The notes beneath the pieces were generated by a model that saw only the letters and a list, made by a program, of their open reading frames with translations, searched no databases and had not been told where the DNA came from. A program made the translations under genes and the position numbers. From Christiangramia lutea (GTDB lineage: Bacteria > Bacteroidota > Bacteroidia > Flavobacteriales > Flavobacteriaceae), in the NCBI RefSeq assembly GCF_022489035.1, contig NZ_JAKVTV010000001.1, positions 62,001 to 126,000 on the forward strand: DNA of 64,000 bases, given 5' to 3'. Positions 15,659-16,805 of this stretch are shown here, piece by piece. Numbering within the stretch: the stretch's first letter is position 1; each line of letters begins with the position of its first letter.

Positions 15659-15741
15659 AGATTTCTCAGTCACTATGATTCTTCGAAATGACTCAGGAAT
15701 AATCAATAATCTAAAGTCATTTCGACCGAAGGGAGAAATCT
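15659..15741 (+). repeat. REPIN-like paired inverted repeat, left copy
   Basis: Two inverted halves: A (15659-15694) begins AGATTTCTCAGTC and ends CGAAATGACTC; B (15716-15741) begins GTCATTTCGACC and ends GAGAAATCT. They are separated by 21 bp. A and B can pair into a long hairpin. Ends 3 bp before the start codon of the GIY-YIG gene. The right copy is at 16045-16129. Confidence 0.85.
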
Positions 15742-15744
15742 GTT

Positions 15745-16041
15745 ATGAAAGATTATTATGTATATATCACCACTAATCAAAAGAAAACAGTACTCTATAT
15801 CGGAATGACTAATAATCTAACTATTCGCTTAGATGAACATTTTCAGGACAGCATTCGGTCAAAAAAATCTTTTGCTGGAAAATATAATTGCTTTCATCTT
15901 ATTTATTTCGAGAAACTTGATAATCCTAAAGAAGCGATCAGGAGGGAGAAAGAAATCAAAAAATGGAGTCGGAAAAAGAAAACTGCTTTAATTGAAAGCC
16001 TAAATTCGGAATGGAACTTTCTTGAACGTGATTTACTATAA
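15745..16041 (+). CDS. Small GIY-YIG nuclease-domain protein
   Basis: 98 residues, just a single GIY-YIG domain of the UPF0213 (YhbQ-like) type. Visible residues: YVY at 5-7 in place of GIY, YIG at 18-20, the catalytic arginine at 28 (NLTIRLDEH), H32, and a metal-binding glutamate at 68 or 70 in AIRREKEIKKWSRKKK. All key residues are present, so it may be active. The gene is bracketed by two copies of a paired inverted repeat with only 3 bp on either side. Family members cut DNA in some cases, but a target is not known. A link to the repeats is an inference. Confidence 0.85.
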   Translation: MKDYYVYITTNQKKTVLYIGMTNNLTIRLDEHFQDSIRSKKSFAGKYNCFHLIYFEKLDNPKEAIRREKEIKKWSRKKKTALIESLNSEWNFLERDLL

Positions 16042-16044
16042 AAT

Positions 16045-16129
16045 AGATTTCTCAGTCGCTTCGCTTCTTCGAAATGACTCCTATATTAATTCAACAATTT
16101 AAGGTCATTTCGACCGTAGGGAGAAATCT
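16045..16129 (+). repeat. REPIN-like paired inverted repeat, right copy
   Basis: A' (16045-16080) is the same 36 bp as A except for four differences in the middle seven; B' (16104-16129) differs from B at one position; the 23-bp spacer between them is unrelated to that of the left copy. It begins 3 bp after the GIY-YIG stop codon, and its last bases overlap the stop of the M23 peptidase gene on the opposite strand. Confidence 0.85.
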
Positions 16130-16805
16130 AAATTTTCAACAATAAATTAGGATCTGGACAATTCTTTAAGTAGTTGTCCAGGTCTTCTTTTTTAACCACA
16201 CCTGGATAATCACCCTTTTTATCATGTATATTTTCCATTACCTGGAAATGTAAATGTGGTGCATAGTCACCATTCTCTTCAAAATCACCTAATTCAGCTA
16301 TCTTTTCGCCCTCTTTAACCGGCGCTCCAATTTCAATTTCTTCTAAAGATTTTCGAGAGAGATGTCCGTACAATGTATAAAATTTGCGACTATCTTCTAT
16401 ATGCTCCAGGATGATAGTTGGTCCATAATCTCCAAAATTTTGATTATCCCTGAAACTATGTACTTTTCCGTTTAGCGGACTTAAAATTTCTGAATAGGCA
16501 GGAACCCAAATGTCCAGGCCAATATGAATATTACGATTAGCTTCAACATTATTAAAGAGCTCACTTCGGTTATACAGAGTCCTTAATTCATTATAACCAC
16601 CGTAAGCTGCCTTCTTATTTCTGTTCCTTAAGAATTCATCTATAAATACAGAAAAAGCTTCCGAAGAAGCAACTTCAAGTTTTAAAAGATCTGTATTATT
16701 TCCAGAGAGATCTATGTAAGCAAAATCCTTTTGTTCATAATCGCCCCCTATTACCGGTGTATAACCAGAGGTAAGTGAAGAAATAAATATTGAAAAATCC
16801 TGCAT
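16128..16805 (-). CDS. M23 family metallopeptidase without visible signal peptide
   Basis: 225 residues. The LytM/M23 core is at about 95-190: HIGLDIWVPA provides the first His and Asp zinc ligands, YTLYGHLS follows, and PHLHFQV gives the other His ligand pair. Such enzymes cut peptidoglycan cross-links. No signal peptide or lipobox is seen; the N-terminus is MQDFSIFISSLTSGYTPVIGG, so secretion by Sec is unlikely unless the true start is upstream. Convergent with the GIY-YIG gene; its TAG stop lies within the right-hand repeat. The intracellular role is unclear. Confidence 0.82.
   Translation of the reverse strand: MQDFSIFISSLTSGYTPVIGGDYEQKDFAYIDLSGNNTDLLKLEVASSEAFSVFIDEFLRNRNKKAAYGGYNELRTLYNRSELFNNVEANRNIHIGLDIWVPAYSEILSPLNGKVHSFRDNQNFGDYGPTIILEHIEDSRKFYTLYGHLSRKSLEEIEIGAPVKEGEKIAELGDFEENGDYAPHLHFQVMENIHDKKGDYPGVVKKEDLDNYLKNCPDPNLLLKI

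Follow-up and report, generated by a model that had tools for sequence, protein, structure and literature searches.

REP-like palindromes are common repeats in bacteria, and RAYT has for years been the candidate enzyme of one REP superfamily. The association described here resembles the REPIN-RAYT system in that a small nuclease gene is flanked by repeats and several families occur per genome. The REPIN-RAYT criterion of short palindromes in dispersed inverted pairs was met, as was that of enzyme-repeat specificity, judged from the protein tree and from genome-wide repeats. Two other criteria were not met: the flanked gene encodes a GIY-YIG protein, whereas that of REPIN-RAYT encodes a Y1/HUH transposase, and the repeats carry the tag GTC(A) instead of GTAG. 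Free-standing GIY-YIG homing endonucleases of the phage Seg type are likewise small stand-alone genes. As with these, a small stand-alone GIY-YIG gene lies here inside a possible recognition site. In contrast to the Seg type, the flank of the gene in our window is a dispersed hairpin family and not one conserved gene site. The window is the whole stretch of 64,000 nucleotides of Christiangramia lutea DNA that was analyzed.

A further class of related repeats, the CGTC-tagged REPs, was defined by Di Nocera et al. in 2013 (PMC3733652). According to the accessible part of that survey, no association of these repeats with transposase genes was seen, and a dedicated transposase is apparently missing. 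They include the Rickettsia RPE-4/6 and the Neisseria dRS3 repeats, the latter being identical with the CGTC-1 repeats of Neisseria (PMC3733652). Among the species surveyed are Caulobacter crescentus, S. meliloti and Gramella forsetii, so that Bacteroidetes are covered as well (PMC3733652). The first-pass annotation of the window had stated that, to its knowledge, no mobilising enzyme had been defined in REP-rich Bacteroidota genomes, and as far as the survey was accessible it says so for the related CGTC repeats; the enzyme missing there is where the present association differs (PMC3733652). The flanks of the Rhizobiaceae genes described below meet the CGTC definition (CGTC tag, 8-9 bp stem starting with AT, 4-5 nt loop, CCA tail); CGTCATCCTCGGGCTTGACCCGAGGATCCA, for example, has the CGTC tag, a 9-bp stem starting with AT, a 5-nt loop and the CCA tail. 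In contrast, the repeats of the window have a GTC preceded by A or G, a 5-bp stem with an inner mismatch and a CT end. They fail the criterion of a CGTC, TGTC or CCTC tag, 8-9 bp stem and 4-5 nt loop and share a related grammar only. Because the definition is unmet, the window class was not filed under the CGTC-tagged REPs. Full-text literature was searched for GIY-YIG together with REP-type repeats and for UPF0213-type proteins, and no report of a link was found among the matches listed, with subscription papers and bioRxiv largely uncovered. In the accessible part of one match, GIY-YIG and extragenic are merely co-listed in a pangenome table and the text (PMC9465073).

The nuclease gene and its paired half-repeats

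The gene (15745..16041, plus strand) encodes a protein of 98 aa and is supported by the open reading frame, a Pfam match and a structure model. The protein matched PF01541 at 65.5 bits (cut-off 22.6). It has a GIY-YIG domain above the curated cut-off, about 100 aa and no further domain, and thus meets the criterion for a stand-alone protein of the UPF0213 type. Profile matches were obtained with 1zg2 and 1ywl, both UPF0213. The structure model had a mean pLDDT of 91.6; its best structural match was again UPF0213 (E 6.4e-4), followed weakly by Slx1, a nuclease acting on branched DNA (E 0.039 or weaker). Across 36 relatives two tyrosines, an arginine, a histidine and a glutamate were conserved, among other residues, and we take these five to be the catalytic residues. 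Domain and fold are the same as in UPF0213/COG2827 proteins (E. coli YhbQ, B. halodurans BH0048) and in Slx1. Unlike the repeat-linked set, E. coli YhbQ lacks the stretch AIxREKxxKxW and its gene lacks tagged flanks; no tagged hairpin was found near yhbQ, which is a more distant relative. The accessible text of one article places Slx1 in one group with YhbQ and YazA; Slx1 is larger than the window nuclease and has the partner Slx4 (PMC7017083). As far as it was available, a 2007 article mentions three small Caulobacter genes of COG2827 that resemble UvrC and whose role was unknown (PMC1839093).

The nuclease gene is enclosed by an upstream element of 83 bp (15659-15741) and a downstream element of 85 bp (16045-16129). 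In both, two halves face each other with their GTC ends, the minus-strand half being the long one and the plus-strand half the short one. The upstream neighbour of the gene is therefore a short half and its downstream neighbour a long half. The upstream pair begins with a 34-nt long half (15659..15692, minus strand) that reads GTCATTTCG...GAGAAATCT on the minus strand. It is followed by a 26-nt short half (15716..15741, plus strand), the proposed left end, whose tail lies 3 bp ahead of the start codon. Downstream, a 34-nt long half (16045..16078, minus strand) is the proposed right end, with its tail 3 bp past the stop codon. The 26-nt short half of the downstream pair (16104..16129, plus strand) has its last two bases within the end of a 225-aa ORF (16128-16805, minus strand). 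Both half-repeats that adjoin the gene thus turn their tails (ATCT) towards it. From the genus-wide orientation and the left/right difference described below we infer a minimal unit of short half, gene and long half (15716..16078, plus strand).

The first-pass annotation had described a 98-aa GIY-YIG gene between two elements with inverted halves, and the ORF, the Pfam match and the element coordinates agree with this. Its 3-bp gaps to start and stop codon were found in the sequence, and the arms it had called nearly identical are 89-90% alike, with unlike inner spacers. The half-element it had pointed to is also repeated in the genome: in 3.47 Mb, one pattern gave 20 copies and another 21, compared with 0 for the reversed patterns. 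As single-stranded DNA, both window elements folded better than 200 of 200 shuffled sequences (z -4.51 and -3.45). Two single halves tested alone folded no better than shuffles (42/200 and 171/200 shuffles equal or better).

The window protein has four paralogues in its own genome. By eye, a hairpin of these classes was absent from each of four other GIY-YIG ORFs of this genome. In genome G000, one GIY-YIG gene (L031, G000:C23:8497-8697) has another palindromic stretch, gctcgccttcgctcaaaaatgagcttcggcgag, on both sides. At G000:C1:592262-592796 (L007, L008), an ORF of about 70 aa without a GIY-YIG match lies between ATTTC half-repeats, and class II palindromes are also present there. It could be a derivative that carries a gene, or a cluster of nested repeats.

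Hairpins at the ends of related genes

Matches to the window protein were found in at least 101 of 149 Flavobacteriaceae genomes, sampled at one per genus. Flanks were analyzed for 123 ORFs in 114 loci, made up of 5 loci of the window's own genome and 109 upper-ranked family matches; 10 of these ORFs contain internal stops and were counted anyway. The hairpins at the flanks follow a grammar of an unpaired GTCA, a stem, a loop, the second arm, TC and then T, C or A. Within 50 bp of the ORFs their density was 7.5/kb upstream and 9.0/kb downstream, as against 0.12-0.36/kb beyond 800 bp. A hairpin within 200 bp was present on some side of 87 of the 123 ORFs and on both sides of 55.

As a control, other ORFs of the same loci were used, excluding those closer than 300 bp to the nuclease gene. 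Both ends were flanked within 100 bp in 43/123 nuclease genes, compared with 1/494 control ORFs and 0/108 small control ORFs. A tagged hairpin within 100 bp on any side was seen in 61/494 controls; gene ends are therefore enriched in general. The tag itself was also controlled for: within 100 bp of the genes, the GTCA tag gave 159 hairpins and five other tags gave 4-14. For 203 genes of the family and cross-phylum sets, the tail of the nearest hairpin pointed toward the gene in 78/106 upstream and 73/101 downstream cases (binomial p 1.3e-6 and 8.6e-6). Of the 123 nuclease ORFs, 32 lacked a strict hairpin within 300 bp, and in the genus the loci L314 (the sole match of genome G170), L315, L317 and L326 had none within about 250 bp. 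The strict hairpin rule overlooks palindromes that can be seen by eye, and the flanking counts are therefore low estimates. Flanking is thus a rule with exceptions.

Relatives in other phyla were collected as the best 80 of at least 572 in named genomes, found with one motif. They come from Proteobacteria and Bacteroidota and from bins labelled Planctomycetes, Chloroflexi, Nitrospirae, Nitrospinae, Elusimicrobia, Calditrichaeota and candidate phyla; many of the loci are metagenome bins and possibly mixed. At least one gene is common to this set and the family set (G141, L076 = L194). Among these best 80, a tagged hairpin within 200 bp was present on some side in 60 and on both sides in 36. Both ends were flanked within 100 bp in 30/80, compared with 0/58 control ORFs. 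No strict hairpin within 200 bp was found for the remaining 20; many of these show palindromes by eye and some show none. Eight relatives lie on plasmid records, three from Shinella and one each from Sinorhizobium, Rhizobium, Neorhizobium, Spirosoma and Planktothrix, and the flanks of seven were inspected. The Sinorhizobium meliloti gene is flanked by CGTCATCCTCGGGCTTGACCCGAGGATCCA and its inverted counterpart. The suggestion that the gene is regularly flanked by repeat copies is supported in both sets, far above control ORFs. The first-pass annotation had placed the link in this lineage; it does exist in the Flavobacteriaceae, while the limitation to one lineage could not be maintained, as the link recurs across phyla with a repeat class that differs by protein clade.

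Two observations concern the surroundings of such relatives. On plasmid p1 of Planktothrix agardhii (NZ_LR882964.1), the relative L148 lies between an MmeI-type restriction-modification gene and DISARM drmA and is surrounded by GTCATTCTGAG...GAAGAATCT repeats. Nuclease relatives are also encoded by 38 contigs of a viral collection (L231-L268), which may be host or prophage DNA.

We then compared protein clade and repeat class. The nearest hairpins were sorted into six classes by their inner sequence; the classes were defined after viewing the hairpins and blind to the tree. The tree contained 188 proteins, 55 of them without a strict hairpin within 150 bp. Of the 133 with a hairpin, 107 were labelled, and 26 whose hairpins belonged to no class were dropped. 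The class labels required 18 changes on the tree, compared with a mean of 62.6 and a minimum of 55 in 500 shuffles. Genome kinship was controlled for by shuffling labels only among paralogues of the same genome (9 genomes, 26 genes). The 2000 shuffles of this kind gave a mean of 30.6 and a minimum of 22, still above the observed 18. Repeats were also counted genome-wide in 49 genomes, which came from 50 of the 80 cross-phylum loci and were grouped by flank class by hand. At least three copies of the class III pattern were present in 20/22 class-III genomes, 2/12 class-V genomes and 5/15 others. At least two copies of the class V pattern were present in 9/12 class-V genomes, 2/22 class-III genomes and 0/15 others. 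A bin labelled Neisseria sp. held 160 copies of the class III pattern. Protein clade thus tracks repeat class, paralogues within one genome included.

Repeat content of genomes and signs of a possible unit

In the family, at least five copies of the ATTTC repeat were found in 8/10 genomes with the closest protein clade and in 7/139 others. Two of these seven, G127 and G128, carry an ATTTC-flanked gene of their own. The reversed ATTTC pattern gave 2 hits in the 149 genomes. All 24 family genomes with at least five copies of either of two patterns had a subfamily match, against a base rate of at least 101/149. One closest-clade genome, G140, had a single ATTTC repeat, and another, G134, had none by pattern, its gene being flanked by the variant GTCATGTCG/GTCATGTTG. 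Some ATTTC copies form local arrays on one strand, in part evenly spaced (G143 C1, 884833-886413, 1807334-1810472 and 4137510-4143301; G036 C9, 74883-75872); copy numbers there are therefore partly due to local duplication.

In the genus we analyzed 24 genomes, two of them less than 75% complete. ATTTC repeats numbered 0, 0, 0, 0, 1 and 0 in the six genomes without a match and 3-44 in the 18 that have one. The Fisher and rank tests of co-occurrence ignore kinship. On a two-gene tree of 23 genus genomes, the gene and the repeat trait each change five times. Three independent pairs on well-supported branches were all concordant, which is too few for significance. The idea that genomes without the subfamily are poor in repeats was supported in the genus. 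That repeat-rich genomes carry the subfamily held as well in the family sample (24/24), with the restriction that repeats are also present without the closest gene. This is the case in the genus genomes G156, G157, G160 and G171 (11-22 ATTTC repeats). In the family genomes G036, G061, G083 and G131 (11-21 copies), no ATTTC-flanked gene was identified, where weaker matches were not all inspected. Genome G170 has one distant nuclease gene (L314, G170:C1:2640502-2640753) and 6 ATTTC repeats, and its relative G165 has neither. The ends of L314 are without a tagged hairpin, and its flanks hold other dyads.

At the window locus, the presence of the gene varies within the genus. Measured in a uniform way, the spacer between the neighbour genes has 501 bases in the window. 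It is 48 bases in G165 and G170 and 119 in G168, all hairpin-free, and 132-197 bases in G157, G160, G166 and G171, which have hairpins and no gene. Eleven genus genomes have the nuclease gene at this locus, two of the copies being broken. The flanks of the gene at this locus mainly have an ATTCC stem in G162, G164 and G169, though these genomes contain 25-39 ATTTC repeats. The genus relatives are about 67-80% alike at the locus, and no target-site rule or duplication is readable at such divergence.

The two gene ends differ in the genus. For ATTTC-class genes with the usual orientation on both sides, the short half was upstream and the long half downstream in 6/6 (L021, L299, L300, L301, L304, L305). 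Class II paralogues had a ACCCTGAA half upstream and a ATGCTGAA or ATGTTGAA half downstream in 5/5 (L310, L313, L324, L325, L023); L311 has neither arrangement. The left/right difference was not clear in the sets beyond the genus and is therefore claimed for the genus only.

Similar cassettes were found in Rhizobiaceae. A 428-bp stretch with the gene and both hairpins is 93% alike between two Rhizobium strains. One of them carries a further copy, and this copy and that of the other strain are 88% alike. Clean transposition could not be upheld here, as rearrangement of one region is not excluded. The surroundings are full of other, partly shared repeat-rich pieces, and the case is therefore only suggestive. 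Between Shinella and Sinorhizobium, 387 bp with gene and hairpins are 78% alike, and the annotated neighbour genes differ. No usable empty site of the Shinella cassette was found among plasmids.

Possible explanations and meaning of the association

With moderate confidence, we consider the nuclease to be the cognate driver of these repeats, RAYT-like and derived from an unrelated fold; neither cutting nor movement has been demonstrated. Flanking, orientation, class specificity, co-occurrence and a variable occupancy of one site among genomes of the genus were observed directly. Binding, cutting and the route of spread are inferred without biochemistry. The RAYT-like role proposed in the first-pass annotation is supported by the comparative tests of flanking and co-occurrence that it had named, and its hairpin cutting and repeat movement are inferences.

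The strongest rival to the cognate-driver reading is a parasite of the homing type, which we regard as doubtful although it has to be taken seriously. A homing endonuclease cuts an empty site and gets copied into it. The repeats would then be spread by something else, and the free-standing GIY-YIG gene would use the repeat as its recognition site and copy itself into abundant, harmless repeat pairs. Such a parasite equally predicts flanking, class specificity and a lack of the gene in genomes that have no repeats, and repeats without a cognate gene do exist. Gene-less sites at the window locus are also found in the genus, although cutting at them is only a supposition. Against it, a search for another enzyme that might act on the repeats gave none within its scope of Y1 transposases, and a subfamily match is present in all 24 repeat-rich family genomes. 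We consider it improbable that the protein is a host nuclease trimming or resolving cruciforms of the repeats, which would then be tolerated and not moved. Its gene would lie near repeats by selection or self-regulation. The fold neighbours, which are structure-specific or repair nucleases, speak for this, and so does an SOS box on a Caulobacter COG2827 gene in the accessible text (PMC1839093). On its own it does not explain why paralogues lie each inside their own repeat class with the tails turned to the gene.

It is very unlikely that the repeats are moved by a RAYT-like HUH or other transposase, with the GIY-YIG gene as a mere bystander. A Y1_Tnp match was present in 8/24 genus genomes, among them, weakly (32.7 bits), the window's own genome. 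The other 16 had no such match, and 8 of these hold 11-39 ATTTC repeats. None of the 11 Y1 loci in the 24 genomes was flanked by these repeat classes; by eye, six regex hits near them belonged to none of the classes. RAYT as the mover is therefore unsupported in the genus, and the accessible part of the 2013 survey reports CGTC repeats without transposase association (PMC3733652). Least credible of all is chance combined with intergenic bias, by which repeats gather between genes and small intergenic genes fall among them. The 61/494 control ORFs with a nearby hairpin are what it would predict, whereas flanks on both sides within 100 bp (0/108 small and 1/494 of all controls, compared with 43/123) and a class specificity that holds within genomes are not. 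It was rejected on the control ORFs and the five other tags (4-14 compared with 159).

If the nuclease is the cognate driver, the minimal autonomous unit would consist of left hairpin, GIY-YIG nuclease and right hairpin, and the dispersed gene-less repeats would be its non-autonomous derivatives. The nuclease may recognise the hairpin of its own class in single-stranded or cruciform DNA and cut there. The resulting nick or break could let the repeat be copied or moved, either by repair from another copy or by single-strand excision. To our knowledge GIY-YIG enzymes do not join strands, and the route of repeat spread is therefore left open. Each nuclease clade would serve its own repeat class, so that several nuclease-repeat pairs would be possible per genome. 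In a wider form, it appears somewhat likely that the stand-alone GIY-YIG nucleases of this subfamily are dedicated to mobilising CGTC-type and related GTC-tagged palindromes across bacteria. They would be convergent with REPIN-RAYT, with a hydrolytic structure-specific nuclease instead of HUH and with several nuclease-repeat pairs per genome.

The analysis names a small candidate enzyme for repeats that were left without a transposase in the accessible part of the 2013 survey (PMC3733652). The pairing predicts which enzyme clade belongs with which repeat class, and the question can be tested with a protein of 98 aa and oligonucleotides of 26 nt. If the proposal is true, a GIY-YIG nuclease would drive a bacterial repeat system and the REPIN lifestyle would have arisen a second time; a function could then be assigned to genes annotated just as 'GIY-YIG nuclease family protein'.
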